From Xanthomonas theicola (GTDB taxonomy: Bacteria; Pseudomonadota; Gammaproteobacteria; Xanthomonadales; Xanthomonadaceae), in contig NZ_CP049017.1 of NCBI RefSeq assembly GCF_014236795.1, positions 722,001-786,000 of the forward strand: 64,000 bases of DNA. The letters are read 5' to 3'. Shown piece by piece: positions 2,787-30,448 of this stretch. The first letter of the stretch is position 1. Each line of letters starts with the position of its first letter. Under the pieces are notes generated by a model. It made no database searches, had not been told where the DNA came from, and saw only the letters and a list, made by a program, of their open reading frames with translations. Made by a program: the position numbers and the translations under genes.

Positions 2787-5075
<2,289 letters not shown>

Positions 5076-5240: not shown

Positions 5241-5426
5241 ATGCGCGAATTGAAGGGATTTGAGGTTAGCCAGGTCAGTAGTGGTGATGGCATCTACTCT
5301 AAAAATGTTCAACTTCAGTTTCGAGATATGATGGTGGGCACGGCTGCTGGTGCAATTATGGGTGGTCCGGCTGGCGCTGCGGTTGGCTTGATTGCTGGCG
5401 CGATCGTCGGATATCGCGGCGCATAA
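5241..5426 (+). CDS. Small Gly-rich peptide with a double-glycine-type leader (putative bacteriocin precursor)
   Basis: ATG at 5241 follows a good ribosome site (AAGGAAACAGT). The 61-residue product starts MRELKGFEVSQVSSG, whose residues at -4 (V), -7 (V), -8 (E), -12 (L) and -13 (E) line up with the GG-leader consensus seen in the peptide at 7873. The cleavage pair here would be SG instead of GG. The predicted mature part of about 46 residues ends in a Gly/Ala-rich hydrophobic stretch with several GxxxG-like steps (MVGTAAGAIMGGPAGAAVGL), typical of pore-forming class II bacteriocins. A membrane protein of immunity-like size follows. An earlier start at 5193 is possible but lacks the leader logic. 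Function is inferred. Confidence 0.7.
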   Translation: MRELKGFEVSQVSSGDGIYSKNVQLQFRDMMVGTAAGAIMGGPAGAAVGLIAGAIVGYRGA

Positions 5427-5444
5427 TTGAGTTGACGAGTTGAG

Positions 5445-5469
5445 GCGCCGCTTGTTCAAGCGGCGCTTT
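5445..5469 (+). terminator. Terminator hairpin after the 5241 peptide gene
   Basis: GCGCCGCTTG (5445-5454) pairs perfectly with 5457-5466, followed by TTT. It lies 18 bases after the peptide stop. Such a hairpin would give excess peptide transcript over the downstream immunity-like gene. Confidence 0.6.
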
Positions 5470-5499
5470 CTATTGGATTCTCAAAATGAAGGTGCTTGC

Positions 5500-5781
5500 A
5501 TGATTTTCCGAGACCCGGCTATCGCAATGTGGTTGTTTGTAAAGGTTGGCCGCCCAATCTCGGCTGATTCTATGCGTCGTTCCTTCGGACTGCGCTGTTT
5601 TGTGTATGCACTGAACTTCTTCATAACATGGGGGCTTTTTGTCACTATTGTTTGGACATTGCTGGATCCAAATAAATTTGGAATTAGTATTGTCTGTGCA
5701 GTCTTGGGCTCTTTGGTTTACGGGGTTTTGGTTGCCGCGGTGCAGCCAAGGATTATCAAGGGGCCTGATGACCAGATATAG
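5500..5781 (+). CDS. Small two-TM membrane protein, candidate immunity protein
   Basis: Start at ATG 5500 (MIFRDPAIAMWLFVKVGRPI) follows AATGAAGGT as ribosome site, giving 93 residues. Two membrane segments are clear: YALNFFITWGLFVTIVWTLL and ISIVCAVLGSLVYGVLVAAV. The C terminus is short and charged (IIKGPDDQI). No family is recognised. Its size, topology and position directly after a GG-leader peptide gene suggest bacteriocin immunity; this is inference. Base composition is clearly lower in GC than maeB, which suggests transfer. Confidence 0.6.
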   Translation: MIFRDPAIAMWLFVKVGRPISADSMRRSFGLRCFVYALNFFITWGLFVTIVWTLLDPNKFGISIVCAVLGSLVYGVLVAAVQPRIIKGPDDQI

Positions 5782-5920
5782 CCAAATTTTCTGCTCTTTG
5801 GAATGCCGTAAGTTTAAGTTGAGACTTTAAAAACGGATCCATATCCGATCTCCGACGGTAAATTCAACAGGTCGAGACAACCGGGATTGCCCATGCCCCG
5901 CTACAAGCCGCAAGAGCGCA

Positions 5921-6193
5921 CGCGTGTTCACCGGCGGCGTGGCGATCGGCTCGATCCTGATGGGCATCTCCAAGCCGGTGCACGTCCTCACCAGCAGCGC
6001 CACCTCGCGCCGGGTGATGAACATGACCGCGATCGCCGCGGTCGACGCGAAGATCCGCAGGCAGCTAGTGTGCTGTTTTCGAAAAAACTAGCCGTTGATT
6101 GCTGGTGAATATATGTATATCAACATGTTGGCTTGTGGTACACAGGTAAGTTATTTCGAGCACTGCACACTAGAAGCGGAGAAGCACGGCTGA
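5921..6193 (+). pseudogene. Duplicated, diverged 3' end of maeB, interrupted by a MITE
   Basis: Bases 5921-6066 match 4911-5056 of maeB at about 94% identity and in frame, encoding RVFTGGVAIGSILMGISKPV and onward. The frame is broken by the insertion at 6068-6170 and resumes after it as EAEKHG-stop (6173-6193), parallel to EAEKR-stop of maeB. It is therefore the complete 3' end of another maeB allele, not a random duplicate. It marks the edge of the segment 5076-5920 as inserted material, or marks recombination with foreign DNA that carried its own maeB tail. Confidence 0.85.
6068..6170. mobile_element. 103-bp MITE-like element with terminal inverted repeats and TA duplication
   Basis: The left end GTGTGCTGTTTTCG and the complement of the right end (GTGTGCAGTGCTCG) match at 11 of 14 bases. 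TA flanks both sides (6066-6067 and 6171-6172), within CTAG. Removing the element restores the reading frame of the maeB tail copy. TA duplication inside CTAG is typical of IS630/Tc1-type transposition, so this is probably a non-autonomous derivative of such an element. It has no coding capacity. Confidence 0.75.
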
Positions 6194-6523
6194 AGTTCCA
6201 CCTTTATTTTTTGGAAGTTTTCCCCTGCCCCTACCCTCGGGGAGAACGGGCGCACCGCAGTGCGGATGATGACCTGTTCCCCTCCGCCTGCGCATCATGG
6301 CGCCATCGCCAGCCGCCGGTTCCGGTCTTTGCCGACGACATTGCAGCATTCGGTCGACAACGCTGGCATCCAAGCAATCGATGCCGTCGTGGCAGCGCCT
6401 GCAAGCAAGAGCAGGCCAGGAAAATTGACCTGTATTGCGGCCTGCCGCGGTCTCTTGAAAAGTGCCTATTTCCTGTGATAAATCTCTTTCCATAGACTGA
6501 CAAGAGGTCGGCGGGGGATCAGG
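6174..6523 (+). promoter_or_regulatory. Non-coding stretch with a candidate promoter for the adaptor gene
   Basis: No gene is supported in these 350 bases apart from the last codons of the maeB tail copy. Near the end is a good sigma-70-like promoter: TTGAAA at 6455-6460, a 16-base spacer, then TGTGATAAA with the -10 at 6477-6482. This is about 40 bases upstream of the ATG at 6524. Confidence 0.45.
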
Positions 6524-7789
6524 ATGTCACCAGGACTGTTCCGCACGTAAGTGCTCCAAGCCAGGCGTACCAGTTGGCTGGGCGGGGTGTCGCTGACCCA
6601 GCCACCGAAGGCGTGGCTGTTGACCGTGGCAGCGAGCGCGGTGGCCTCGGCCGTGGTGCTGTTTCTGTGCCTGGCGACCTATACCCGCCGCTCCAGCGTG
6701 ATCGGGCAATTGCAGCCGGCCAGGGGGCTGGCCACGGTCCTGGCACCGGCCAGCGGCGTGGTCGGGCGCATGCAGGTGTCCGAAGGCGACAAGGTGGCGA
6801 CCGGGCAGGCCCTGGCGTTGGTCAGCGTGCCGCGTGCCACCGTGGCCAGCGGCGATACCGTGGCGGCGCTGGAACGGCGGTTGGGGCAGCGCCGCGAGGG
6901 GCTTGTCGCCGCCCGCGCGGCCGAGTTGGACGCGCTGTCCGTCCAGGACGGAGGGCTGGCCGCACAATTGGCGGCAGCCAGGAGCGAACTGGCGCAGATG
7001 GACACCGAGACCGCCACGCGCCGGGAGCAGGTCCGCATCGCCGGGGAGACGCTGGAGCGCCTGCGCCGTCTGGAGGACGTGCGCTATGTCAGCGTGCTGC
7101 AGATCAAGCAGCAGGAATCGTCCGTGCTCGAATACACCAGCCAGATGCAGGCGATGCAGCGGCAGGCGATCGCCACCCGGCGGACCATCGTGCAATTGCA
7201 GCAGGCGCTGAGGGAACTGCCGGCGCAGCGCCGGTCGGCGCAGGCCGGCTACCAACGCGATCTGGCGCAGTTGGAGTAGGAACAGGTGGAGACCGAGGCG
7301 CGCGGTGCGCTGGCGGTGGTGGCGCCGATTGCCGGCATGGTGGCGACGCAGAACGTCAAGCCTGGACAGGCGGTACAGGCCGGGCAGCCGCTGCTGAGCC
7401 TGCTGCCGGACGACGGCGAACTGGAGGCCGAACTGCTGGTGCCCAGCCGCGCCATCGGTTTCGTCGCGCCGGGGGATGCGGTGACGCTGCGCTATCAGGC
7501 ATATCCGTACCAGAAGTTCGGCCACCAGCGGGGCAAGGTGGCGCGGATCAGCCGCAGCGCGTTGAGCCGTGGCGAACGCGGTGCATCGATCGGCGATGCG
7601 CAGCAGGGCGAAGCGTACTACCGGGTGACGGTGGCGCTGGCGCGGCAGGCGATCACCGCCTATGGCAGGTCGGAACCCTTGAAACCCGGAATGTTGCTCG
7701 ATGCGGACATCCTGGGGGAGAAGCGGAGGCTGATCGAATGGGTGTTCGAGCCGTTGTATGCGCTCAAAGGAAAGGTTGGAAGCGACTGA
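6524..7789 (+). pseudogene. HlyD/CvaA-type periplasmic adaptor of a peptide exporter, broken by two nonsense codons
   Basis: Read in one frame from ATG 6524, the product begins MSPGLFRT, hits TAA at 6548, continues VLQARRTSWLGGVSLTQPP and a membrane anchor (LLTVAASAVASAVVLFLCLA), then the biotinyl-lipoyl-like half VLAPASGVVGRMQVSEGDKV, a coiled-coil region, TAG at 7277, and resumes EQVETEARGALAVVAPIAGM with the second lipoyl half and beta-barrel to 7789. Both stops are single-base changes in an otherwise intact frame of about 420 codons. The adaptor links inner-membrane C39 ABC exporters to TolC. Either export is lost, a suppressor or readthrough operates, or an adaptor elsewhere substitutes. 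Confidence 0.85.
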
Positions 7790-7872
7790 TCCTGTGAGGT
7801 AGAGATTGCCGGGTGGGTTCCCGGCCCCAAGGCGCAGGGGTGCTGTGCCAACACTTCAAAGGAGATAGGGAA

Positions 7873-8019
7873 ATGCGGGAGTTGACTATGAACGAACTGA
7901 ATGAAGTCGATGGTGGGACATCATATAGTGCTGGATATGCCACTGGGCAATTTGTCGCCAAGACCATTATCGCGGTTGGTACTGTTGCGGGGCTCTATGC
8001 TCTCCTGATTTCGGCTTGA
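7873..8019 (+). CDS. Double-glycine leader peptide, putative bacteriocin/microcin precursor A
   Basis: A 48-residue precursor starting at ATG 7873, preceded by GGAGATAGGG. The leader MRELTMNELNEVDGG is a textbook GG leader (L at -12, E at -8, L at -7, V at -4, GG at -2/-1), the substrate signal for C39-peptidase ABC exporters such as the one at 10990. The mature part would be 33 residues, hydrophobic with small residues (SAGYATGQFVAKTIIAVGTV), consistent with a membrane-active class II peptide. Only 11 bases separate it from the next peptide gene, so the two look like a two-peptide system. The activity is inferred. Confidence 0.8.
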   Translation: MRELTMNELNEVDGGTSYSAGYATGQFVAKTIIAVGTVAGLYALLISA

Positions 8020-8030
8020 TAGGGGGAATT

Positions 8031-8186
8031 ATGAAAGAAATGAATAATTTAGACGTTGATGCAGTTTTTGGTGGAGTTGGAACTGCTGGCGCTCCACCGA
8101 TTTCGGGTAATGAGTTGATTGGAGGCTCGAGGGAAGCTGCAAGTTTTCTGAAGGGTTTCTTGCAGGGGTTCTACGACACATTTTGA
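8031..8186 (+). CDS. Double-glycine leader peptide, putative partner bacteriocin B
   Basis: A short ORF of 51 codons from ATG 8031, preceded by AGGGGGAATT as ribosome site. The leader is MKEMNNLDVDAVFGG, with L at -9, V at -7 and GG at the cleavage site. The predicted mature peptide of 36 residues begins VGTAGAPPISGNELIGGSRE and ends in an amphipathic segment AASFLKGFLQGFYDTF. It sits 11 bases after the 7873 gene and is followed by a hairpin and a small membrane protein gene. This arrangement is the usual one for two-component bacteriocins with immunity. Function is inferred from leader and context. Confidence 0.75.
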   Translation: MKEMNNLDVDAVFGGVGTAGAPPISGNELIGGSREAASFLKGFLQGFYDTF

Positions 8187-8200
8187 TTTAAATGAAGGCC

Positions 8201-8223
8201 GCCTGCCCGTTTTACGGGCGGGC
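8201..8223 (+). terminator. Hairpin between peptide pair and immunity-like gene
   Basis: GCCTGCCCGT (8201-8210) pairs with ACGGGCGGGC (8214-8223) around a TTT loop, with one G-T wobble. Only a short T stretch follows, so it may attenuate rather than fully terminate transcription. Confidence 0.45.
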
Positions 8224-8241
8224 TTACATGGGAGTACACTC

Positions 8242-8418
8242 ATGAAACTGGCTTTTGCATGTGCACTGTATATAATTATTCTTGGAGCTATCGTTTTTAA
8301 GTCCGGATTTGAAAGGTCGGACTATTTATTGATGCTGATTGGATTTATTTCATTATTTGTCGCCTACAGGGTTTGGAAGTCTATCGATTCGGCGAGCAAC
8401 GCGGGCAAATTGAAATAG
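8242..8418 (+). CDS. 58-residue membrane protein, candidate immunity protein for the peptide pair
   Basis: ATG 8242 follows GGGAGTACACTC. The product has two membrane segments, LAFACALYIIILGAIVF and YLLMLIGFISLFVAYRVW, and a polar tail (KSIDSASNAGKLK). No family is recognised. Its location right after two GG-leader peptide genes and its topology resemble small hydrophobic immunity proteins. AT content is high compared with core genes nearby. Confidence 0.6.
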   Translation: MKLAFACALYIIILGAIVFKSGFERSDYLLMLIGFISLFVAYRVWKSIDSASNAGKLK

Positions 8419-8516
8419 CGCCAAGATTTTTAATTATCTTGCAAGTCCAAGTGAATGCATGGTATGCGCAAGACTTTAAATACGCAGGTCTCCCTCTGGA
8501 CAAGAGAGTATAGATA

Positions 8517-9560
8517 GTGATTGCGAGTCGCAGGTGGAACGACATCGACATACTTCCATCGAAGGAGGGAGAGGGGTGGTCTGTTTTCAAGGCGCGCAAA
8601 CAGATCGATGCAAGCTACTCCGAGATTGCATCTCTCGTTGCGCGTTGGCTGCCGGCAAATCCTCTACTTATCGGGGCTCCGGGAGAAAAGCGGTTTCTAC
8701 CTCCTGTGCTTATCTCGGAATTTGAGGCTGTTGCGCTTAGAACCGTTCGAAACAACTGCCGCAACATGATTATTGCGCTTGCGGCGTGCGGAGTCGTTCT
8801 ACTGTGTACTTCTGCAGCTGATCCAACATCCTCTGTTTTTTTGATCGGACTAATGGCGATTGCACTCGGGGCGACCATCGCTCTTGACTACTATCTTGGA
8901 TTGCGGAACCGCGAGCGCTTGACTGAGAGGGCACTTTTTTTTCGTTGGCTTAAGGTCGATTCGTCAGCCAGACTTGGATTCCTTGTTTGGCTTGTCATCG
9001 CACTTGGCATGGGTGTACTGCAATGGCTGTTGCTGCAACACCTTGGGAGTATGGATTCACTATTCCATAACTTTGGCTTTATGTACGCTGATGTGAGTGC
9101 TGGGCAGTATTGGAGGATTATAACCGGTCCGTACTTGCACTATTCGATGTTTCATTACTTGAATAACGTAATGCTTCTGCTGTTCGCGGGGACTCTGGCG
9201 TTTGCTTTGTTTGGAAGATCGGTATTTTTAGTTTTTATTATCGGAAATGCTTGTGCTGCACTCGCGCAGATGAAATTTGGGGGAGGGGACTTTGATAATT
9301 ATGGGGGGGTATCAGGTGGGGTCTATGCATTGTTTGGCGCACTGATCTCGGCGGGGGTGGTCAAGCGCCAGTTGTTTCCAAAAGGCTTTTGGTTGTTGAT
9401 CTTAAATCTGACTGTGCTTGGAATATTTGCGTCAGAGGTCATTTCAGAAAATACAGCGTCGGCTGCCCACGCCGCCGGTATCTTCCTTGGGGGGGAGTGG
9501 GCATCTACTACGGCCTCAAGCAAGCGAGCAGTTAAATTTGAGAATCATCGTCCAGAATGA
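8517..9560 (+). CDS. Rhomboid-family intramembrane serine protease, C terminus frameshifted at a G tract
   Basis: A 347-residue multi-spanning protein starting at GTG 8517. The rhomboid core is clear: GQYWRIITGPYLHYSMFHYL with the H-x-x-x-N motif (H213), the catalytic serine motif GGVSGGVYALFG (S266), and the catalytic histidine in AAHAAGIFLGG (H318). An extra hydrophilic N-terminal region of about 80 residues has no family I recognise. At the seven-G run 9489-9495 the frame leaves the expected path. With one more G the protein would end GVGIYYGLKQASS, with its stop at 9532-9534, just before the next gene. The catalytic residues precede the shift, so activity may survive. It could process or confer resistance to the exported peptides; this is inference. 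Confidence 0.8.
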   Translation: MIASRRWNDIDILPSKEGEGWSVFKARKQIDASYSEIASLVARWLPANPLLIGAPGEKRFLPPVLISEFEAVALRTVRNNCRNMIIALAACGVVLLCTSAADPTSSVFLIGLMAIALGATIALDYYLGLRNRERLTERALFFRWLKVDSSARLGFLVWLVIALGMGVLQWLLLQHLGSMDSLFHNFGFMYADVSAGQYWRIITGPYLHYSMFHYLNNVMLLLFAGTLAFALFGRSVFLVFIIGNACAALAQMKFGGGDFDNYGGVSGGVYALFGALISAGVVKRQLFPKGFWLLILNLTVLGIFASEVISENTASAAHAAGIFLGGEWASTTASSKRAVKFENHRPE

Positions 9561-9718
9561 AATGTCCGAGTGCGGACTTGCCTCCCTGGCCATGGTCTCA
9601 GGCTGGCATGGAAAAGCGCTGGGCCTGTCTGAAATGCGCGGCCGCTTTCCACTGTCGCTGAAAGGCGCCAAACTCAGCCACCTGATCCATATCGCCCAGC
9701 AAACTCGGCTTCTCCTCC
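9538..9718 (+). pseudogene. Remnant of a second C39-peptidase ABC exporter
   Basis: From a TTG at 9538 the frame reads LRIIVQNEMSECGLASLAMV and on through GRFPLSLKGAKLSHLIHIAQ, clearly homologous to the first 57 residues of the exporter at 10990 (MDACLQNEAAECGLASLAMV). An extra A in the run at 9699-9701 shifts the frame, and similarity ends about 20 bases later. The rest of the gene is absent. The catalytic cysteine (ECGLA) is retained. The start overlaps the end of the reconstructed rhomboid frame, suggesting the two were once an operon. Confidence 0.8.
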
Positions 9719-9996
9719 CGCCCCGTTCACGCTTCCGGAATTGCCCTTGGAGACGCAGTACAGCCTAAAGCATGAAGGTGCGATGATTTGATGCGAACGC
9801 TGTTGAGTGCGTATCGGCGGTTTTAATCCGATGTTGATGAATCATATCTCGCCGTATGCGGATTTTCTTAAATGCTCAGTCGGCCATCAAATAAATCGAT
9901 GTATTGTGAATGGAAGTTCGGCGTTAGTTTTTTGAGGCGTATGTCGGTTCTTCCCCGGCGCAGGGTATGCGTCATAGCGACTGTGAGAGGTGATCT

Positions 9997-10137
9997 ATGC
10001 GTGAGTTGAAATTTGAAGAAACCGTTGCTGTTACTGGCGGGCTTGAGGCCGGCTGCTCATATACCAAGACGGTCACAAAGAACGCAGATGGAAGCACGAC
10101 GACAACCAAGACGTACGAATGTCATGCTAAGGCCTGA
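9997..10137 (+). CDS. Double-glycine leader peptide with two cysteines, putative microcin precursor
   Basis: A 46-residue precursor from ATG 9997 with ribosome site GAGAGGTG. Leader MRELKFEETVAVTGG matches the leaders at 5241 and 7873 in its first residues and ends in GG. The predicted mature peptide has 31 residues, is Thr/Lys-rich and hydrophilic (LEAGCSYTKTVTKNADGSTT), and has Cys at mature positions 5 and 27, which could form a disulfide. It is unlike the hydrophobic peptides at 5241-8186, so it probably has a different target or role. A strong terminator follows directly. Confidence 0.75.
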   Translation: MRELKFEETVAVTGGLEAGCSYTKTVTKNADGSTTTTKTYECHAKA

Positions 10138-10148
10138 TTCTGATTTTT

Positions 10149-10184
10149 AATGAGGCCTCGGTTCAATGTCGAGGCCTCATTTTA
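10149..10184 (+). terminator. Strong intrinsic terminator after the 9997 peptide gene
   Basis: A perfect 12-bp stem (AATGAGGCCTCG at 10149-10160 with 10170-10181), a 9-base loop and a following T stretch, 11 bases after the stop codon. Confidence 0.75.
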
Positions 10185-10210
10185 CGAAAATAGAATGGAG
10201 TAATTCGCGG

Positions 10211-10953
10211 ATGATTCGTATCGCAACTCTGGCCGTTGCTTTTCTTTCGATCGTTTTTTTTTTTGTGGAGATGCTCATGCAGGCTGGAAGCGAATATCGC
10301 CCGATCTCATAGAGTTGAGTGGCGATATCGACGCGAATTCCGATGTGGAATATTTTAAGGCGGCAACGGGCGGTTATTCGAAAATTGTCGTTCATAGCGG
10401 AGGGGGTTTCCCACGCGTTGCGCTGAAGATTGCCGAAGACATCGTTCGGCGACGGCCCATCGAAGTGAGGGTGAATGGGGTGTGCCTATCGGCGTGTGCC
10501 AGCTACATCGCGGTGGCCGCTTCTTCGCTGAAGGTCGATTGCGGAGCTGTTCTCGGGTGGCATGGGACGCTGCCAACTGGGAGCGAAGGAGCGGTTTCGC
10601 TGGCGGCGGAAGGAGCTCCTGGCGCATTGGTGGAGAAATATCGCAGTTGGCTGGACAAGTTTCACGCGGACGAGCGTGCTTTCTACAGTCGTGCTGGAGT
10701 GAACTACGCGATGTTGGAGCATGCGGGTCAGCAGGTAAAAATGAGTTCCGGAAAGGCGGATGAATATACGCTCGACGAGAAGACGGGAGAGTACTCCTAC
10801 ACCAGCACCCCGTCTGTCTGGATCCCTCAGGGTGGCACGTTGCAGAAATATGGGGTTGCTGGAGCTGAGTATTGTCCTGGATACACGGATGAAATGATTG
10901 TGGATGCAATGAAGAAAGCTGGGGTGAAATCATCGTTCGTGTTGGAGCATTAA
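10211..10953 (+). CDS. Periplasmic ClpP/crotonase-fold protein (COG3904-like), frameshifted at a T11 tract
   Basis: A signal peptide (MIRIATLAVAFLSIVFF) is encoded from ATG 10211 in one frame. The body, from about 10264, is in another frame, and the switch falls exactly in a run of eleven T (10254-10264). Twelve T would give one continuous protein with the cleavage region CGDAHAG-WKR. The body has a ClpP-like pattern: IVVHSGGGFPRVALKIAEDI, then VRVNGVCLSACASYIAVAAS with the serine next to Cys, then GAVLGWHGTL, as in predicted periplasmic ClpP-like proteins. It lies between a peptide gene and the exporter. The phase may be set by tract length or slippage. Function is unknown. Confidence 0.65.
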
Positions 10954-10989
10954 GGCAGTGCTCAGTCGCAACTATTACGCGGCCGGCTG

Positions 10990-13086
10990 ATGGACGCCTG
11001 CTTGCAGAACGAAGCCGCCGAGTGCGGCCTGGCGTCGTTGGCGATGGTGGCGGGTGCCTACAACCTTCACGTCGGCCTGCCGGAAATGCGCCGCCGCTTT
11101 CCACTGTCGTTGAAAGGGGCCAAACTCAACCACCTGATCCATATCGCCCAGCAACTCGGCTTCTCCACCCGGCCACTGCGTCTGGATATGGAGCACCTGG
11201 GCCAGCTCAAGCTGCCCTGCATCCTGCACTGGGACCTCAACCACTTCGTGGTGCTGGCCAGGGTCGGCAAGTCGAACGCCACGATTCTCGATCCGGCCAT
11301 CGGCGAGCGGAAACTGTCGCTCGACGAGGTGTCCAGGCATTTCACCGGTGTGGCGCTCGAACTGACGCCAACCGCCGGGTTCACGCCACAGAAGGCGGTT
11401 CCCTCGATTTCGGCGCGTCAGTTGACCGGTCCGATCCGCGGTTTGTGGCACGCGCTATCGCAGATTCTGCTGCTGTCCGCAGCACTGCAGGTGTTCGTCG
11501 TCCTGGCGCCGTTCTACATGCAGTGGGTGGTGGACCAGGTGCTGGTCTCGGCCGACCGCGACCTGCTGGTGGTGCTGGGCCTTGGATTCGGTCTTGCGTT
11601 GTTACTGCAGGTGGGGATCGGGCTGTTGCGCGGGTGGTCGGTGGTCTACCTGTCTTCGAAGCTCGGATTGCAGTGGATGGGCAATGTGTTCGCGCACTTG
11701 CTCAGGCTGCCGCTGGACTTCTTCGAGAAACGCCACCTGGGCGATGTGACCTCGCGCATGGCCTCGGTGCAGGCGATCCAGCACACGCTTACCACCAGCT
11801 TCGTCGAAGCGATCATCGACGGACTGATGGCGGTGGTCACGCTGGCACTGATGTTGATCTACAGTTGGAAGCTGGCGCTGGTGACGTTGCTGGCGGTGGC
11901 GCTGTATCTGGGTATTCGCGCGATGGCCTACCGGCCGGTGCGCGATGGCACCGAGCAGCAACTGGTCGCCGCCGCCAGGCAGCAGACTCATCTGCTGGAA
12001 TCGCTGCGTGGCATGCAGAGCCTGAAGGTGGCCGGTGAGGAATCGCTGCGCCGCTCCACCTACGACAACCTGCTCAACGACACCGTCAACCAGGACGTGA
12101 AGCTGGCCCGGATGTCGCTGGGCTTCTCCAGTGCCAGCCAGTTGCTATTCGGCATCGAGCGGATCGCGGTGATCTGGATCGGCGCGACGCTGGCGCTGGA
12201 CAGCGTGTTCTCGGTCGGCATGCTGGTCGCCTATCTGGCCTACAAGGACCAGTTCGCCATGCGCGTGAGCGGGCTGATCGACAAGTGGATCGAGTTTCGC
12301 ATGCTGCGTCTGCATGGCGAGCGCCTGGCCGACATCGTACTGACGCCGCCGGAAGATGACGAGGCGCTGCACGAGGCGCTGCCGCCGGCCGAGCCGCGCA
12401 TCGAGGTCGAGGGGCTGTCGTTCCGCTATGCCGAGGGCGAGCCATGGGTGCTCAAGGACTGTAGTTTCGCGATCGAGCCGGGTGAGTCGGTGGCGATCGT
12501 CGGCGCCTCCGGCTGCGGCAAGACCACGCTAGTGAAGCTGTTGCTTGGGCTGCTCAAGCCAACCGAAGGCGCGATCCGCATCGGCGGCCACGATCTGCAT
12601 AAGCTCGGCCCGCGCAACGTGCGCAAGATCGTCGGCGCGGTGATGCAGGACGACCAGTTGTTCGCCGGCAGCATCGCCGACAACATCGGCTTCTTCGATC
12701 CGGACTTCGACCTGCAGCGGATCGAGGCGGCGGCGCGGCTGGCGGCGGTGCACGAGGACATCGCCGCGATGCCGATGGGCTACCACAGTCTGATCGGCGA
12801 TATGGGCAGTTCGCTGTCCGGCGGCCAGAAGCAGCGGGTGATCCTGGCGCGGGCGCTGTACCGGCAGCCGACGCTGTTGTTCCTGGACGAGGCCACAAGC
12901 CATTTGGACGTGATGCGCGAGCGCCTGGTGAACGAGGCGGTGAAGCAATTGAAGCTCACCAAGGTGATCGTGGCACATCGGCCGGAGACGATTGCCAGCG
13001 CCGACCGCGTGCTGGTGATGGAGCAGGGCCGGATCGTGCAGGAAGTGCGGCCACGGCCGGCGTCCGTTGAAGCGGTGGCGGTCTGA
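10990..13086 (+). CDS. C39-peptidase ABC exporter for double-glycine peptides (CvaB/LagD type)
   Basis: A 698-residue bacteriocin-processing transporter. Residues 1-130 are a C39 peptidase with catalytic C12 (AECGLASLAMVAG), oxyanion Q6, H85 (LNHFVVL) and D101 (ILDPA). Residues about 150-440 are the six-helix membrane domain. Residues about 465-690 are the ATPase, with Walker A GASGCGKTT near 504, the signature LSGGQKQRVILARAL near 609 and Walker B LLFLDEATSHLD. It would cleave leaders after GG and export the peptides at 5241, 7873, 8031 and 9997, through an adaptor and TolC. All motifs are intact, in contrast to its partner adaptor gene at 6524. There is no strong ribosome site at ATG 10990. 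Confidence 0.92.
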   Translation: MDACLQNEAAECGLASLAMVAGAYNLHVGLPEMRRRFPLSLKGAKLNHLIHIAQQLGFSTRPLRLDMEHLGQLKLPCILHWDLNHFVVLARVGKSNATILDPAIGERKLSLDEVSRHFTGVALELTPTAGFTPQKAVPSISARQLTGPIRGLWHALSQILLLSAALQVFVVLAPFYMQWVVDQVLVSADRDLLVVLGLGFGLALLLQVGIGLLRGWSVVYLSSKLGLQWMGNVFAHLLRLPLDFFEKRHLGDVTSRMASVQAIQHTLTTSFVEAIIDGLMAVVTLALMLIYSWKLALVTLLAVALYLGIRAMAYRPVRDGTEQQLVAAARQQTHLLESLRGMQSLKVAGEESLRRSTYDNLLNDTVNQDVKLARMSLGFSSASQLLFGIERIAVIWIGATLALDSVFSVGMLVAYLAYKDQFAMRVSGLIDKWIEFRMLRLHGERLADIVLTPPEDDEALHEALPPAEPRIEVEGLSFRYAEGEPWVLKDCSFAIEPGESVAIVGASGCGKTTLVKLLLGLLKPTEGAIRIGGHDLHKLGPRNVRKIVGAVMQDDQLFAGSIADNIGFFDPDFDLQRIEAAARLAAVHEDIAAMPMGYHSLIGDMGSSLSGGQKQRVILARALYRQPTLLFLDEATSHLDVMRERLVNEAVKQLKLTKVIVAHRPETIASADRVLVMEQGRIVQEVRPRPASVEAVAV

Positions 13087-14228: not shown

Positions 14229-15262
14229 CCTGATTACCCATCAGTCGCATCCCTTGATTCGGGGCTGGTCAATGCTGCAAGCCGCTGATTCGACAGAGGC
14301 GATGCGACGATGGCCAAGAAGAACCTGATCCAGTTCCAGGCGGGCATGAGCCTGCCGGCGTTCCTGCGGTCCTATGGGAACGAAGCGCAATGCCGGCAAG
14401 CCGTCTTTGAACAACGGTGGCCGCAAGGCTTCTTTTGCCCAGCGTGTGGACATCGGCGGTCTTGCCAGTTGCACAGCCGCGATCTGCTCCAATGCAATCG
14501 CTGCAAACATCAGACCTCCTTGACGCGCGGCACCTTGTTCGCTGATACCAAGCTGCCGTTGCGCACCTGGTTCCTGGCGATCTACCTCCTCAGCCAGCAC
14601 AAGAACGGCATCTCGGCGTTGGCGCTGCGCCGGCAACTTGGAGTGAGCTACAACACCGCCTGGCTGATCAAACACAAATTGATGCAAGCCATGGTCGAAC
14701 GCGAAGCCTCCCATCAGTTGAGCGGGGATATACAGGTGGACGACGCCTTTTGGGGCGGAGAGCGCCACGGCGGCGGGGCCGGCCGTGGCAGTCCGGGCAA
14801 GACCCCGTTTGTGGCCGCCGTTCAGTGCTCTGCGCAGGGACATCCTGTCGCCATGCGCCTGGATGTGGTGGCCGGTTTTCGCAAGGCCGAACTGACCCGC
14901 TGGGCAAGCCGCTATGTCGCCCCAGGCAGTCGCGTTGTTTCCGATGGCCTGAGCTGCTTCCCAGGCGTGGCCCTGGCCGGATGCCACCATACCGCCATCT
15001 TCAACCGCGGCCGGCGAGTGCCCACAGAGCCGGCGCTTATCTGGGTCAACACCCTCCTGGGCAACATCAAGAACGCCTTGCATGGCACCTATCACGCCTT
15101 GCGCCCAAAGTACCTGCAGCGCTACCTCAGCGAGTTCTGCTATCGCTTCAACCGACGCTTCGACCTGGCCGCCTTGGTGCCACGATTGATCTGCGCCTCC
15201 CTCCACACTCCACCGCTGCCCTATCGGATTGCTACGCTGGATGCGTGATGTGGGTAATCAGG
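14229..15262 (+). mobile_element. Intact IS1595-family insertion sequence with 8-bp target duplication
   Basis: The element is 1034 bp with perfect 12-bp terminal inverted repeats (CCTGATTACCCA at 14229-14240, TGGGTAATCAGG at 15251-15262). It is flanked by the direct repeat TGCGCGAA at 14221-14228 and 15263-15270. An 8-bp duplication is characteristic of the IS1595 family. A single intact transposase fills the element. The perfect flanks and ends indicate a recent insertion. Confidence 0.95.
14310..15248 (+). CDS. IS1595-family (ISXo2/ISXo5-like) transposase
   Basis: A 312-residue transposase. The N terminus has a zinc-ribbon (CPACGHRRSCQLHSRDLLQC with two C-x2-C pairs, continuing NRC) that binds the element ends. 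The central DDE/DDN-type core has the first Asp in GDIQVDDAFWGGERHGG, the second in VVSDGLSCFPGV, and the C-terminal region VNTLLGNIKNALHGTYHALR containing the Asn/His signature of the family. The C-terminal YLSEFCYRFNRRFDL motif is also conserved. No frameshift is present, so it should be active. Confidence 0.93.
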   Translation: MAKKNLIQFQAGMSLPAFLRSYGNEAQCRQAVFEQRWPQGFFCPACGHRRSCQLHSRDLLQCNRCKHQTSLTRGTLFADTKLPLRTWFLAIYLLSQHKNGISALALRRQLGVSYNTAWLIKHKLMQAMVEREASHQLSGDIQVDDAFWGGERHGGGAGRGSPGKTPFVAAVQCSAQGHPVAMRLDVVAGFRKAELTRWASRYVAPGSRVVSDGLSCFPGVALAGCHHTAIFNRGRRVPTEPALIWVNTLLGNIKNALHGTYHALRPKYLQRYLSEFCYRFNRRFDLAALVPRLICASLHTPPLPYRIATLDA

Positions 15263-16198: not shown

Positions 16199-17265
16199 GA
16201 CTCAACTTCCAAGCGCAACACCCTCTCAGCCAGTAGGGTGTATGCATGTCAAGAAGCTATCTCCACCTGAGCGCAGAAGAGCGCGCGGTACTCCAAATCG
16301 AAACGCGACGTGGTCAGAGCTTACGCTCGATATCCAGGCTGCTGGATAGAAGCCCGTCGACATCGAGCAGGGAGCTGGCCAGGCAGCAAGCCACGGTCTA
16401 CCGTGCTCGAGAGGCGGCCATGCGTTACCGGACAGGACGTCAGCACAGCGTTCGGCGGCGACGGCTGACACCGGGAACGGATTTATTCCAGATGGTGCGC
16501 GATCATCTGGTGCTGTGGCGCTGGTCGCCCCAGCAGATTGCTGCCAAGCTGCTCCTCATGTCCCCGGATGATCCTGCCCAGCGCGTCAGTCACGAAACCA
16601 TCTACGCCACGATCTACGCGCACCCGCGCGGCGGCCTGAAAAAGGAGCTTGTGGAGGCGTTGCGCCAGCGCAGGCCGCCCCGGGGATCACGGCGCACGAC
16701 CGCCGCCAAACGCAGCTGGGTGCCTGAGGAACCGCGGATCGTGCACCGACCCGAAGAGGTGCAACAGCGGTTGGTCCCAGGACATTGGGAAGGTGACTTG
16801 ATCAAGGGAGCGTTCAATCGTTCCTGTGCTGGCACCCTGGTGGAGCGCAAGACGCGTTTTGTGGTGCTGTGCCGGATGGACGGCTGCACCGCCACAGACG
16901 CACTGGAAGGTTTCACCCGTCAGATGAAGAAGCTCCCCGCATCCATGCGAACCAGCTTGACCTATGACCGTGGCACCGAAATGACGCGCTATGCCGAGCT
17001 GATGGAACGGTTGAACATCGACCTGTGGTTTGCCGATCCGCACGCACCGTGGCAGCGCGGAAGCAATGAGAACACCAACGGTCTACTTCGCCAGTTCCTG
17101 CCCAAGGGGGCGGACCTATCCGCCGTCAGCCAGGAATACCTCAATCACATCGCGTTGCTGATGAACACTCGCCCTCGCCAGACACTTGGCTGGAAGACGC
17201 CTAGCGAGGCAATGGAAGCGGACATCGCAGCGTTCAAATCACGTGTTGCACTTGATTCTTGAGAC
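16199..17265 (+). mobile_element. IS30-family insertion sequence
   Basis: Imperfect terminal inverted repeats (16199-16221 against 17243-17265, 17 of 23 matching; inner part GCAACAC well conserved) bracket one transposase gene whose stop lies inside the right repeat, as is usual in IS30. CTCCTTAG occurs directly at 16192-16199 and 17270-17277, but that is longer than a normal IS30 duplication of 2-3 bp, so the exact ends are uncertain. Confidence 0.75.
16246..17262 (+). CDS. IS30-family transposase
   Basis: A 338-residue transposase. An N-terminal HTH (YLHLSAEERAVLQIETRRGQ) is followed by the DDE domain: first Asp in GHWEGDLIKG, second in LTYDRGTEMT, and Glu in GSNENTNGLLRQFLPKG, with the family signature FADPHAPWQRGSNENTNG. 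The frame is intact at usual family length. It probably starts at ATG 16246, though the ribosome site is weak. Part of its 5' region (16439-16491) is present again as an inverted copy at 17280-17332. Confidence 0.93.
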   Translation: MSRSYLHLSAEERAVLQIETRRGQSLRSISRLLDRSPSTSSRELARQQATVYRAREAAMRYRTGRQHSVRRRRLTPGTDLFQMVRDHLVLWRWSPQQIAAKLLLMSPDDPAQRVSHETIYATIYAHPRGGLKKELVEALRQRRPPRGSRRTTAAKRSWVPEEPRIVHRPEEVQQRLVPGHWEGDLIKGAFNRSCAGTLVERKTRFVVLCRMDGCTATDALEGFTRQMKKLPASMRTSLTYDRGTEMTRYAELMERLNIDLWFADPHAPWQRGSNENTNGLLRQFLPKGADLSAVSQEYLNHIALLMNTRPRQTLGWKTPSEAMEADIAAFKSRVALDS

Positions 17266-26491: not shown

Positions 26492-29400
26492 ATGGAACCC
26501 ATTCGTTCTCGCACGCCAAGTCCTGCCCGGGAGCCGCAGGCCGGATCGGATGAGGCTCAGCCCATTGTTGGTCGGCTCGCGTCTACGGCCGCCAGCAGCC
26601 CCTTCGCCAGCAGCCCCCTTGATGGCTTGCCCGCTCGGCCGGTGGTGTCCCCGACCCGCCGGCCGGCCACGCCCGAATCCTCGCCTGCTTTTTCGGTGGG
26701 CGGCTTCAGCGAACTGCTGCGTCGGTTTGATCCATCGCTTTATACATTTCCTTCCTTGGACGCTCACAGTGCAGACGCTGTACCTGGAGAGAACGCCGTG
26801 GTGCAGTCGGTTCTGCGCACAGCGTATGAACCGCAGTCCCACTCTGGCGCGGCTGTCACTGCTCCATCGCCAACCCCGCCTCGCGTCCAGGCGGCAGCGC
26901 GGCGGCGGAGTTCTGCCCAGACCTTCGCTTCGTCTGCAGAGAGTGTGGATCTGAGCGCCCTAGGCTACACCCAGAAGCAACGGGAGCAGATCAAGCCAGG
27001 TGCTTGGTCGACAGTGGCGCAGCATCACGCGGCATTGGCCGACCATGGGTTTACGCACGTGCAGATCATTGAGCTCAGCAAACATGCGGCATCGTTAGGG
27101 ACCGTGGCTGACAGGTATCAGGCGATTATCACGGTGCTGCCCGAGGCGACACACAAACAAATCGTAGAAGTGGGTAAACAGTGGTCGGGCGCTCGAACCC
27201 TGCAGACATTGCCTACGGTGGCGGAGAATTTGAGAGGCCCGCCGTTACAGTTGGAAACATGCCAACTGATCAAGATTGCAAAACGTGGCGGCGCTCCAGC
27301 GCTTGAGGCAGTCCAAGCATTGCGCAATGCGCTTACTGGCGAACCACTGCACCTGACCCCGGCGCAGGTCGTGGGCATCGCAAGCAACGACGGCGGCAAG
27401 CAGGCGCTGGAGACGGTGCAGCGGCTGCTGCCCGAGCTGTGCGCACCGCCCCATGGCCTGACCTCGGCGCAGGTCGTGGGCATCGCCAGCCACAGCGGCG
27501 GCAAGCAGGCGCTGGAGACGGTGCACAGGCTGCTGCCCGTGCTGTGCGATCCCCTCTATGGCCTGACCCCGGCGCAGGTCGTGGGCATCGCCAGCCACGA
27601 TGGCGGCAAGCAGGCGCTGGAGACGGTGCAGCGGCTGCTGCGCGAGCTGTGCGCACCGCCCCATGGCCTGACCCCGGCGCAGGTCGTGGGCATCGCCAGC
27701 AACGGCGGCGGCAAGCAGGCGCTGGAGACGGTGCACAGGCTGCTGCCCGTGCTGTGCGATCCCCTCTATGGCCTGACCCCGGGGCAGGTCGTGGGCATCG
27801 CCAACCACGATGGCGGCAAGCAGGCGCTGGAGACGGTGCAGCGGCTGCTGCCCGAGCTGTGCGCGCCACCCCATGGCCTGACCCCGGCGCAGGTCGTGGG
27901 CATCGCCAGCCACGACGGCGGCAGGCAGGCGCTGGAGACGGTGCACAGGCTGCTGCCCGTGCTGTGCGATCCCCTCTATGGCCTGACCCCGGCGCAGGTC
28001 GTGGGCATCGCCAGCAACGGCGGCGGCAAGCAGGCGCTGGAGACGGTGCGCAGGCTGCTGCGCGAGCTGTGCGCGCCACCCCATGGCCTGACCCCGGCGC
28101 AGGTCGTGGGCATCGCCAGCCACGACGGCGGCAAGCAGGCGCTGGAGACGGTGCACAGGCTGCTGCCCGTGCTGTGCGATCCCCTCTATGGCCTGACCCC
28201 GGCGCAGGTCGTGGGCATCGCCAACCACGATGGCGGCAAGCAGGCGCTGGAGACGGTGCAGCGGCTGCTGCCTGAGTTGTGCGCACCGCCCCATGGCCTG
28301 ACCCCGGCGCAGGTCGTGGGCATCGCCAGCAACGGCGGCGGCAAGCAGGCGCTGGAGACGGTGCAGCGGCTGCTGCGCGAGCTGTGCGCACCGCCCCATG
28401 GCCTGACCCCGGCGCAGGTCGTGGGCATCGCCAGCAACGGCGGCGGCAAGCAGGCGCTGGAGACGGTGCAGCGGCTGCTGCGCGAGCTGTGCGCGCCACC
28501 CCATGGCCTGACCCCGGCGCAGGTCGTGGGCATCGCCAGCCACGACGGCGGCAAGCAGGCGCTGGAGACGGTGCACAGGCTGCTGCCCGTGCTGTGCGAT
28601 CCCCTCTATGGCCTGACCCCGGCGCAGGTCGTGGGCATCGCCAGCAATATCGGCGGCAAGCAGGCGTTGGAGACGGTGCAGAAGCTGCTGCGCGAACTGT
28701 GCGCGCCGCCCTATGGCCTGATCCCGGCGCAGGTCGTGGGCATCGCCAGCCACGATGGTGGCAAGCAGGCGCTGGAGACGGTGCGCAGGCTGCTGCGCGA
28801 GTTGTGCGCGCCGCCCTATGGCCTGACCCCGGCGCAGGTCGTGGGCATCGCCAGCAACCGCGGCGGCAAGCAGGCGCTGGAGACGGTGCGCAGGCTGCTG
28901 CGCGAGTTGTGCGCGCCGCCCCATGGCCTGACCCCGGCGCAGGTCGTGGGCATCGCCAGCCACGATGGCGGCAAGCAGGCGCTGGAGACGGTGCGCAGGC
29001 TGCTGCGCGAGCTGTGCGCGCCGCCCTATGGCCTGACCCCGGCGCAGGTCGTGGGCATCGCCAGCCACGATGGCGGCAAGCAGGCGCTGGAGACGGTGCA
29101 CAGGCTGCTGCCCGTGCTGTGCGATCCCCTCTATGGCCTGACCCCGGCGCAGGTCGTGGGCATCGCCAGCAACGGCGGCGGCAAGCAGGCGCTGGAGACG
29201 GTGCAGCGGCTGCTGCGCGAGCTGTGCGCGCCGCCCTATGGCCTGACCCCGGCGCAGGTCGTGGGCATCGCCAGCAACATCGGCGGCGGCAAGCAGGCGC
29301 TGGAGACGGTGCAGCGGCTGCTGCCCGAGTTGTGCAAGCCCCCCTATGGCCTGACCCCGGCGCAGGTCGTGGGCATCGCCAGCAACGGCGGCGGCAAGCA

Positions 29401-30448
29401 GGCGCTGGAGACGGTGCAGCGGCTGCTGCGCGAGCTGTGCGCGCCGCCCTATGGCCTGACCCCGGCGCAGGTCGTGGGCATCGCCAGCAACGGCGGCGGC
29501 AAGCAGGCGCTGGAGACGGTGCAGCGGCTGCTGCCCGAGCTGTGCGCACCGCCCCATGGCCTGACCCCGGCGCAGGTCGTGGGCATCGCCAGCAACGGCG
29601 GCGGCAAGCAGGCGCTGGAAGGTGTTGTTGCCCAGTTATCCACTCCTCACCCGGCGTTGGCAGCTTTTACCAACGATCGCCTCGTCGCCTTGGCCTGCCT
29701 CGGTGGACGTCCTGCGTTGGAGGCGGTCAAGAACGGTTTGCCACGGGCGGTGGCATTGATCAGGAAAATGAATAAGCGTGTTCCCGAACGCACGGCCCAC
29801 CACGGAGCCGAACTCGGAACAATACTTCGATTGCTGAGTTTCTTCCAGGGCCACTCCAATCCAACGCATGCATTTCATGAAGCGACGGCCGAGTTCGAGA
29901 TGAGCAAGCAAGAGTTGTTACAACTATTTCGCCGTCTTGGCGTCACAGAACTCGAAGCCCTCAGTGGAACTATCCCCGCGGCATCCCAGCGTTGGCAGCG
30001 CATTCTCCATGCATTGATGAAACCGCCCTCTGCTTCGGTTCAAGCTCCGATTCAGGAGTCCTTGCATGAATTCGCCGATTCCCTGGAGCGCGAATTGGAT
30101 GCGCCCAGCCCGATGCAGGATGCATCCCCGGCTGGGTCAAGCAGCCGCAAACGGTTTCGATCCGATGATCCAGTGCACAGGTTCCCAGCACAGCAGATGG
30201 CCGATGCGCCCATTCCCGAACATCGAGACGCTCCTCATCTCCCCTTGGCCAGCAGCAGGAGTACAAAACGCTCGCTTTCCATAGCCAGCGGCCTCCGGGA
30301 TCCTGGAATGCCGACGGACGAGGATCTGGCAGTTTCCAACACTGCTTTCCAAGAATATGCGGACTTCTCCTTCTCCCCTGGAGCGGTGGAAAGTTTTCCA
30401 GTGTTCGACGAAGAGGAAACAGCATGGTTGATGAATGTCTTTTCCTAG
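26492..30448 (+). CDS. TAL (transcription activator-like) effector, divergent type
   Basis: A 1318-residue type III effector that enters plant nuclei and activates host genes. Start is MEPIRSRTPSPAREPQAGSD at 26492. Residues 1-287 hold the secretion signal and cryptic repeats (LPEATHKQIVEVGKQWSGAR; LRGPPLQLETCQLIKIAKRG). Residues 288-1023 are 21 full repeats, then a half repeat at 1024 (ALEGVVAQLSTPHPALAAF). The C-terminal region has a nuclear localisation motif (SSSRKRFRSDD near 1219) and an acidic activation domain at the end (FPVFDEEETAWLMNVFS). Full repeats have 35 residues, not 34, with Gly at position 8 (QVVGIAS) and endings such as ELCAPPHG or VLCDPLYG. N- and C-terminal regions differ from AvrBs3 at many positions. 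Confidence 0.96.
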   Translation: MEPIRSRTPSPAREPQAGSDEAQPIVGRLASTAASSPFASSPLDGLPARPVVSPTRRPATPESSPAFSVGGFSELLRRFDPSLYTFPSLDAHSADAVPGENAVVQSVLRTAYEPQSHSGAAVTAPSPTPPRVQAAARRRSSAQTFASSAESVDLSALGYTQKQREQIKPGAWSTVAQHHAALADHGFTHVQIIELSKHAASLGTVADRYQAIITVLPEATHKQIVEVGKQWSGARTLQTLPTVAENLRGPPLQLETCQLIKIAKRGGAPALEAVQALRNALTGEPLHLTPAQVVGIASNDGGKQALETVQRLLPELCAPPHGLTSAQVVGIASHSGGKQALETVHRLLPVLCDPLYGLTPAQVVGIASHDGGKQALETVQRLLRELCAPPHGLTPAQVVGIASNGGGKQALETVHRLLPVLCDPLYGLTPGQVVGIANHDGGKQALETVQRLLPELCAPPHGLTPAQVVGIASHDGGRQALETVHRLLPVLCDPLYGLTPAQVVGIASNGGGKQALETVRRLLRELCAPPHGLTPAQVVGIASHDGGKQALETVHRLLPVLCDPLYGLTPAQVVGIANHDGGKQALETVQRLLPELCAPPHGLTPAQVVGIASNGGGKQALETVQRLLRELCAPPHGLTPAQVVGIASNGGGKQALETVQRLLRELCAPPHGLTPAQVVGIASHDGGKQALETVHRLLPVLCDPLYGLTPAQVVGIASNIGGKQALETVQKLLRELCAPPYGLIPAQVVGIASHDGGKQALETVRRLLRELCAPPYGLTPAQVVGIASNRGGKQALETVRRLLRELCAPPHGLTPAQVVGIASHDGGKQALETVRRLLRELCAPPYGLTPAQVVGIASHDGGKQALETVHRLLPVLCDPLYGLTPAQVVGIASNGGGKQALETVQRLLRELCAPPYGLTPAQVVGIASNIGGGKQALETVQRLLPELCKPPYGLTPAQVVGIASNGGGKQALETVQRLLRELCAPPYGLTPAQVVGIASNGGGKQALETVQRLLPELCAPPHGLTPAQVVGIASNGGGKQALEGVVAQLSTPHPALAAFTNDRLVALACLGGRPALEAVKNGLPRAVALIRKMNKRVPERTAHHGAELGTILRLLSFFQGHSNPTHAFHEATAEFEMSKQELLQLFRRLGVTELEALSGTIPAASQRWQRILHALMKPPSASVQAPIQESLHEFADSLERELDAPSPMQDASPAGSSSRKRFRSDDPVHRFPAQQMADAPIPEHRDAPHLPLASSRSTKRSLSIASGLRDPGMPTDEDLAVSNTAFQEYADFSFSPGAVESFPVFDEEETAWLMNVFS
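27353..29620 (+). repeat. TAL repeat array, 21 full repeats plus half repeat
   Basis: Tandem 105-bp units from 27353, except repeat 19 (29243-29350) with 108 bp. The half repeat starts at 29561. Repeat-variable di-residues in order: ND, HS, HD, NG, HD, HD, NG, HD, HD, NG, NG, HD, NI, HD, NR, HD, HD, NG, NI, NG, NG, and NG in the half repeat. Three backbone types recur: QRLLPELCAPPHG, HRLLPVLCDPLYG and (Q/R)RLLRELCAPP(H/Y)G. The DCPLYG-type ending (DPLYG) appears in repeats 2, 4, 6, 8, 12 and 17, suggesting past duplication of repeat blocks. Confidence 0.95.

Follow-up and report, generated by a model that had tools for sequence, protein, structure and literature searches.

Rhomboid and ClpP-like proteases in class II microcin cassettes of Xanthomonas theicola and related genomes: candidates for proteolytic self-immunity

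Immunity to microcin V (MccV) is conferred by a small membrane protein, and a 2024 study by Kim et al. reportedly concerns, to judge by its title, the proteolytic immunity of a microcin from the Gram-negative Vibrio cholerae. In microcin S (MccS) of Escherichia coli G3/10, encoded by mcsS, mcsI, mcsA and mcsB, the McsI protein, which belongs to the CAAX protease family, protected an E. coli strain (PMC3316575), and in Gram-positive bacteria Abi/CPBP proteins beside class II bacteriocin genes have been linked to self-immunity (Kjos et al. 2010, cited in PMC9298176). Here we describe a segment of the genome of Xanthomonas theicola, positions 5241 to 13086 of a 64,000-nucleotide stretch of contig NZ_CP049017.1 (positions 722,001 to 786,000, the whole stretch being referred to as the window), in which microcin-type peptides with GG leaders and a C39-peptidase exporter are found together with a predicted rhomboid protease and a ClpP-like secreted protein. 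The genomes compared comprise 20 of the window's own genus code, 297 of its family, 369 of its class and 35 of the genus of one further genome, G132 (genomes and loci carry G and L numbers, respectively).

As in microcin S, a GG peptide, a HlyD-type adaptor, an ABC exporter and an adjacent protease-family protein are combined in loci of this kind, but the gene order is another, the position directly before the exporter (hereafter the slot) also takes rhomboid, ClpP-like, M23 and M16 proteins, and the present loci are known from their genes alone. Where the MccS type has a CAAX/CPBP immunity protein, the window has a rhomboid instead; CPBP proteins occupy the slot in five of the 66 related loci surveyed below. 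The MccV type (CvaA/CvaB/CvaC/Cvi) shares with these loci the leader type, the C39 exporter, the HlyD adaptor and an adjacent immunity-sized gene (in part after PMC13174018, whose accessible text also has exporters of this class removing the leader with their peptidase domain), and differs from them in that a predicted catalytic protease stands in the slot in 16 of the 66 loci. Abi/CPBP proteins, likewise intramembrane proteases beside bacteriocin genes and tied to self-immunity, belong to a family different from the rhomboids, and their roles are disputed, as with SilX (see below). The nisin resistance protein (NSR), an S41 serine peptidase that degrades an antimicrobial peptide (PMC4698656), offers a parallel in that a serine protease (predicted here) is directed at an antimicrobial peptide (proposed here), though it is Gram-positive, confers resistance rather than self-immunity and belongs to family S41, the window protein being weakly ClpP-like.

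The initial annotation of the window, which knew of no described system with a rhomboid and a periplasmic ClpP-like protein as fixed parts, went too far as regards the rhomboid, since two Lacticaseibacillus class IIa operons also contain a rhomboid protease gene (Cas1 and Cas2, caseicin-type; PMC12634818) and the association between rhomboids and bacteriocins is therefore not wholly new, being already in print for lactobacilli. These operons differ in being Gram-positive, in their class IIa peptide and in having a separate immunity gene, and in the accessible part of that source no function is given to the rhomboid. Among the matches listed for the open-access literature, a scope outside which most subscription papers fall, no paper was found that places a rhomboid in a microcin operon of a Gram-negative bacterium or gives one a part in immunity; in the accessible parts of PMC10772556 and PMC7939560 the rhomboid appears in tables only, and PMC8277102 has just the word "rhomboidal". 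A ClpP-like microcin immunity protein was absent from the titles among the matches listed for the same literature.

Proteases in the slot before the exporter

The two proteases of the window, the peptide between them and the exporter are as follows:

8517..9560, + strand: rhomboid protease of clade A (PF01694, 2.3e-13), whose frame shifts near 9489-9495
9997..10137, + strand: GG peptide 4, with a Thr-rich hydrophilic core and two Cys; 65-89% identity to G017, G227, G703 and G694
10211..10953, + strand: ClpP-like secreted protein, interrupted; 71-76% identity to four open relatives
10990..13086, + strand: C39-peptidase ABC exporter, intact; open, with the C39 Cys motif, Walker A and LSGGQ signature kept

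The exporter, which had been annotated as intact and indeed has no stop and all of the motifs listed, is 84-88% identical to its nearest relatives over 477 residues. The 67 best places for such an exporter (E up to 9.7e-197) are the window's own and 66 others, among which L104, L081, L109 and a few more were retained although a nearby contig end leaves their slots incomplete. As a rule these loci consist of a HlyD adaptor, followed by one or two peptides with GG leaders, an accessory gene and then the C39 exporter. In 16 of the 66 loci a peptidase is found in the slot: CPBP/Rce1 in five (one of these assignments lying under the Pfam cut-off), a rhomboid in four, a ClpP-like protein in three, M23 in three and M16 in one, not counting a CPBP gene of L123 that lies upstream of HlyD and thus outside the slot. 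The remaining 50 have small membrane open reading frames (ORFs), nothing clear or an incomplete upstream region.

Among 84 ORFs of at least 90 residues chosen by their position in the slot, 12 match the slot's three commonest Pfam families (Rce1/CPBP five, Rhomboid four, M23 three), whereas in a control, made up of the first 88 of the 183 ORFs lying upstream of HlyD, no such match appears among the 25 of 33 families listed. Fisher's test gives p 1.2e-4, or 1.0e-3 if one unlisted control match is allowed, values which are indicative because the loci are mutually related; L163 and L164, loci chosen because they bear rhomboids, would contribute four ORFs beyond the 84 and bring Rhomboid to six. 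The fewest state changes on the exporter tree, a quick tree with 31 of 66 inner branches weak, number four for the rhomboid, five for the ClpP-like protein, six for CPBP and two for M23, which suggests that slot proteases have been repeatedly gained or lost. Each of the three M23 genes is preceded by a peptide that combines a hydrophobic stretch with a tail bearing one or two Cys, and the peptides beside CPBP genes are diverse. A rule by which intramembrane proteases would go with membrane peptides and periplasmic ones with soluble peptides is only partly borne out, as the M23-adjacent peptides also hold a hydrophobic stretch, and was not retained.

With a four-row profile, the rhomboid subfamily is found in five of the 297 family genomes and seven of the 369 class genomes (the window's own included), as well as in three of the 35 genomes of the genus of G132, which is also counted in the family set. 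All eight copies (window, G001, G016, G110, two in G132, G694 and G703), in three genus groups, adjoin a GG peptide, a C39 exporter or both; of the two in G132, one lies at a contig end with the exporter only and the other has a peptide only. Other, partial rhomboid matches in these genomes were set aside as ordinary rhomboids and do not enter this count. Residues S266, H318, H213 and N217, whose roles we presume to be those of their counterparts in GlpG, are invariant in all eight copies. GlpG chains of the PDB (2nr9, 3b45 and others) are matched with an eight-row profile (best 2.7e-13), and GlpG shares the rhomboid core with its GxSG serine and histidine, the window type being distinguished by an N-terminal region of about 150 residues ahead of the matched core and by its microcin context. 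Rhombosortase (TIGR03902) was rejected as an identity (47.7 bits against a family cut-off of 84), as was a part in anti-phage defence, PADLOC having given no match for the four proteins scanned, and 72,556 plasmid records contained no match at E 1e-5 that would indicate a plasmid-borne rhomboid.

The rhomboids fall into clade A (window, G110 and one G132 copy; 40-51% mutual identity) and clade B (the remaining five copies; 81-91%). Purifying selection is seen in clade B, where the ratio of nonsynonymous to synonymous substitution rates (dN/dS) is 0.16-0.26, clade A being too diverged for the test. Clade B rhomboids follow differing peptides; those of clade A follow two closely similar ones, in G110 and in X. 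axonopodis DSM 3585. The former, from another genus of the family, has the minimal rhomboid form, made up of HlyD, one GG peptide, the rhomboid (51% identical to that of the window) and the C39 exporter (80%), and in the latter the peptide stands with its clade A rhomboid (45%) and no exporter alongside, the same rhomboid being found on NZ_JFAQ01000100.1 of this strain and on G132:C3.

Close kin of the ClpP-like protein are found, besides the window, in G017, G227, G703 and G694, with a broken copy in G001, and a distant relative (22% identity) occupies the same slot in G100 (L139). The protein has no Pfam match, its NCBIfam Clp-related matches lie far under the cut-off and its five weak PDB matches are all ClpP chains (best E 0.029); a single-sequence structure model was discarded (predicted local distance difference test score 35.5). 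Ser59 and His83 (body numbering) are invariant in 10 of 10 sequences and would form a putative catalytic pair, the Asp not being located. Purifying selection is again seen, with dN/dS of 0.11-0.23 among the ClpP-like genes; since the window's body is included in this range, its interruption looks recent.

The six non-relic ClpP-like genes (window, G017, G227, G703, G694 and L139) all stand directly behind a Thr-rich GG peptide with two Cys, which in G017, G227, G703 and G694 is a relative of peptide 4, and this pairing holds even at the 22% protease identity of L139. One loose leader rule applied over 68 loci yields 169 candidate peptides in 62 of them, and only six candidates have a Thr fraction of at least 0.25 together with at least two Cys: five of these are followed, at a distance of 17-99 bases, by a ClpP-like gene, and the sixth (L153) is read out of frame within maeB, the gene behind which the island of the window begins. 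Near 12 distant ClpP-like matches (L062-L073), from the 24 family genomes with distant matches only, no C39 exporter was found, and the GG ORFs in their surroundings were spurious only (L071).

The initial annotation had raised the two proteases as fixed parts of one system and, as the case against it, their presence next to such peptides in this strain only. The latter does not hold, as the co-occurrence it proposed to look for is borne out by the counts above (eight of eight rhomboids, six of six non-relic ClpP-like genes) and both proteases are open in one operon in G703 (HlyD, peptide-4 type, ClpP-like, peptide, membrane ORF, rhomboid, exporter) and in G694 (HlyD, peptide, membrane ORF, peptide-4 type, ClpP-like, C39 5' remnant, peptide, rhomboid, exporter). 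As to the former, the recurrence within C39 modules stands, but the proteases belong to separate cassettes and one system with both of them fixed was rejected: the rhomboid alone is found in G110 and G016, the ClpP-like gene alone in G017 and G227, and G001 has a rhomboid with a broken ClpP-like relic. The minimal ClpP-like unit is that of G017, with a peptide of the peptide-4 type (89%), the ClpP-like gene (76%) and the exporter (89%), HlyD and an ATP-grasp cassette lying farther upstream; G227 is similar except that a C39 5' remnant precedes its exporter and its HlyD is in two pieces.

Self-immunity and alternative roles

We consider it moderately probable that the slot proteases destroy the cell's own peptide and thereby provide self-immunity. 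The C39 domain strips the leader during export, as is established for this class of exporter, and the immunity gene is most likely the one that occupies the slot, its product seemingly being a small membrane protein in many loci and, in a minority, a protease that would degrade the cognate peptide; a rhomboid or CPBP protease would act in the inner membrane and a secreted ClpP-like, M23 or M16 protein in the periplasm. This reading is favoured because C39 already removes the leader, because a microcin operon also needs immunity, because of the precedent of microcin S and because of units in which the protease is the sole candidate. It is also favoured by the recurrence of these genes, the excess of proteases in the slot over the control, the pairing of ClpP-like genes with one type of peptide, the DSM 3585 rhomboid that accompanies a GG peptide but no exporter, and the low dN/dS. 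As to sole candidates, in 10 of the 11 peptide-protease-exporter units without a clade B rhomboid, including that of G110 with its rhomboid, no other hydrophobic ORF of at least 40 residues lies between peptide and exporter, the exception (L103) having one such ORF of 45 residues. This comparison took in 13 of the 16 slot loci (L081, L156 and L120 were left out), and two of the 13, both with a clade B rhomboid, did show other ORFs.

A number of points weigh against self-immunity. Clade B rhomboids always adjoin the exporter although their peptides vary, and three of their loci (G016, G001 and G703) have further membrane ORFs of immunity size between peptide and rhomboid, in keeping with a role that is not bound to a single peptide. 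A weak test for a peptide matching the clade A rhomboid of the window found none in its genome, the window's own protease copies are interrupted, no peptide of the peptide-4 type precedes the broken ClpP-like relic of G001, and at 635 residues the exporter ORF of G703 falls short of the usual 700 or so. Cas1 and Cas2 are drawn with the rhomboid gene beside a separate immunity gene (PMC12634818), and immunity did not require SilX, the CAAX protease of a streptococcal bacteriocin locus, whose role may lie in the processing of a signal peptide (PMC9298176).

The main alternative is that the proteases perform a second maturation step, trimming or releasing the peptide after C39 cleavage and before its exit, which we regard as unlikely though deserving of serious consideration. 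In all five clade B copies the rhomboid frame ends 7 bases before the exporter start, with the stop codon within those bases, and these rhomboids stay with closely related exporters while the peptides change; the separate immunity gene of the Lacticaseibacillus operons fits this alternative too, and intramembrane proteases are known to mature other peptides, as does EpeP of family M50 (PMC10885120) and possibly SilX (PMC9298176). However, 50 of the 66 closest exporter loci show no protease in the slot (a few slots being cut by contig ends), so that export as such seems not to need one, ten protease units would be left with no visible immunity gene, and the ClpP-like and M23 genes track the peptide type, as would also be expected of an immunity gene.

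It is improbable that the substrate of the proteases is instead a receptor of the peptide, as raised in the initial annotation, or a partner in its import, cleaved within the producing cell to give immunity without touching the peptide: their membrane or periplasmic location would be compatible with this, but the tracking of peptide type by the ClpP-like gene points to the peptide as substrate, although a shared receptor would give the same pattern. That the rhomboid and ClpP-like genes are functionless passengers joined to the microcin genes by rearrangement is very hard to credit, for although the maeB and C39 duplicates make rearrangement in the window plain to see and the protease copies there are damaged, chance assembly was rejected on the recurrence of both genes beside microcin genes (eight of eight rhomboid copies in three genus groups and six ClpP-like copies), and purifying selection, invariant presumed catalytic residues and the presence of other protease families in the same slot also argue against it.

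Building on proteolytic self-immunity, a wider and more tentative proposal may be put forward, namely that rhomboids and secreted ClpP-like proteins would together represent two unrecognised classes of microcin immunity, that the Xanthomonadaceae would possess a "protease immunity slot" which has recruited five unrelated peptidase families matched to peptide chemistry and location, and that the rhomboids would be membrane scavengers cutting a pore-forming peptide inside the bilayer. To our knowledge, few bacterial rhomboids have a known substrate, and the four-gene operon of G110, with its rhomboid fixed beside a small transmembrane-like peptide, would offer a ready enzyme-substrate pair with a clear growth phenotype. 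Peptide-protease pairs could also be used for marker selection in laboratory strains. Should proteases prove to be a general route to immunity, resistance by proteolysis would become predictable, and mining for small (50-250 residues) hypothetical immunity proteins, as in PMC13174018, would miss many.

Layout and condition of the island

The other features of the island and the gene preceding it are the following:

2787..5075, + strand: malic enzyme gene, presumably maeB; intact ORF, directly behind which the island starts
5241..5426, + strand: GG-type leader peptide 1, 61 residues, with a non-canonical leader site (ORF; weak Bacteriocin_IIc match)
5500..5781, + strand: small membrane ORF of immunity size, for which an immunity role may be supposed from the sequence
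5921..6066, + strand: duplicate of the maeB 3' end, a probable recombination scar; 146 bases, 94% identical to 4911-5056
6524..7789 (about), + strand: HlyD-type periplasmic adaptor, broken (HlyD_3, 4e-19 in the second piece; one TAG and one TAA in frame)
7873..8019, + strand: GG peptide 2, probably one half of a two-peptide pair; 60% to a peptide of G009 (L097)
8031..8186, + strand: GG peptide 3, probably the other half of the pair; 69% to a peptide of G009 (L097)
8242..8418, + strand: small membrane ORF that probably encodes immunity to peptides 2 and 3; 75% over 36 residues to L097 (G009)
9539..9767, + strand: remnant (5' part) of another C39 exporter, immediately following the rhomboid; 91-93% DNA identity to 11074-11174

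The island thus runs from peptide 1 and the first small membrane ORF through the maeB 3' copy, the broken HlyD, peptides 2 and 3 and the second small ORF to the rhomboid, the C39 5' remnant, peptide 4, the ClpP-like gene and the intact exporter. Judged by its sequence, the maeB site carries class II microcin cassettes stacked one behind another, in this strain a decaying mosaic, as the adaptor is broken and both protease frames are interrupted. The same site is occupied by related loci in G017 (L033) and G009 (L097), where the neighbouring gene is 93-94% identical in DNA to maeB of the window. The maeB 3' duplicate evidently marks a recombination joint, and the C39 5' remnants, which were found behind either type of protease in the window, G694 and G227 and of which the one in the window had been correctly recognised in the initial annotation, look like scars of cassette stacking; recombination would have joined two protease cassettes in the window, leaving maeB and C39 scars in a locus that would now be decaying.

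Several genes of the window fared less well than first annotated. The ClpP-like gene taken to begin at 10211 is not one continuous frame, since the frame from 10211 stops at 10312 and that of the body is open only from 10315; the break is a T-run (10254-10264) within the would-be signal peptide, and the signal and body frames are unjoined. The rhomboid at 8517 was rightly identified, but its frame shifts near the 3' end at a G-run (near 9489-9495), just past the catalytic His, a relative-like tail being present in another frame, and owing to this shift the last part of the window's ORF is not homologous to its relatives. The adaptor is a pseudogene, as had been proposed, and no second close adaptor was found in the 4.79-megabase genome, in which other HlyD matches are just 29-30% identical. 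Of what characterises a class II microcin operon, GG precursors (peptides 2-4) and a C39 exporter are present and a working HlyD adaptor is absent, and the activity of the window's own locus is doubtful given the lesions in the adaptor and both protease genes. Open copies of the genes broken in the window exist in relatives, for HlyD in L082, L163 and L164 among others. Both protease genes are interrupted at homopolymer runs, an observation compatible with phase variation, decay or assembly error; the decay reading is accordingly conditional, as such lesions may instead be assembly errors or phase-variable sites.

All four GG-type peptides and both immunity-sized membrane proteins of the initial annotation are present as ORFs, though only part of them is backed by relatives. 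Peptides 2, 3 and 4 are, by their conservation, real microcin-type precursors. Peptide 1, with a Bacteriocin_IIc match under the Pfam cut-off (E 2e-5) and no clean GG, has no relatives at E 1e-3 in the 66 compared exporter loci, among which no relative of the small membrane ORF at 5500-5781 was found either, so that only the ORF at 8242 has any. In G009 (L097) relatives of peptides 2 and 3 and of this small ORF occur in the same order without a rhomboid, and a requirement of peptides 2 and 3 for the rhomboid was rejected on these grounds; G320 (L098) has weaker relatives of peptide 2 and of the 8242 ORF. Together, peptides 2 and 3 and the small membrane ORF (7873-8418) appear to make up a distinct family of two-peptide microcins.

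ATP-grasp-like genes were noticed beside further GG peptides upstream of exporters in L032 (G001) and L033 (G017), that of G017 having an MvdD pre-ATP-grasp domain (E 1.6e-12) and that of G001 being judged by eye; graspetide-type cassettes evidently use the same exporter site in these two loci. In L149 (G008), a protein upstream of the exporter has a 2-oxoglutarate-Fe(II) oxygenase match (8e-12) and a weak, sub-cut-off C39 match; close to it are a GG peptide and an ORF that was judged by eye to be ATP-grasp-like. Behind the exporter of the window there are two transposase-like ORFs (14310-15248 and 16246-17262), which we take to be IS1595-like and IS30-like, respectively, and which fit a rearranged island. 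Farther downstream, at positions 27352-29619 of the window, a 105-base unit is repeated in tandem 21.6 times (90% matches), which points to a plant-associated Xanthomonas-like organism in that the array presumably encodes repeats of 35 residues of the transcription activator-like effector type.

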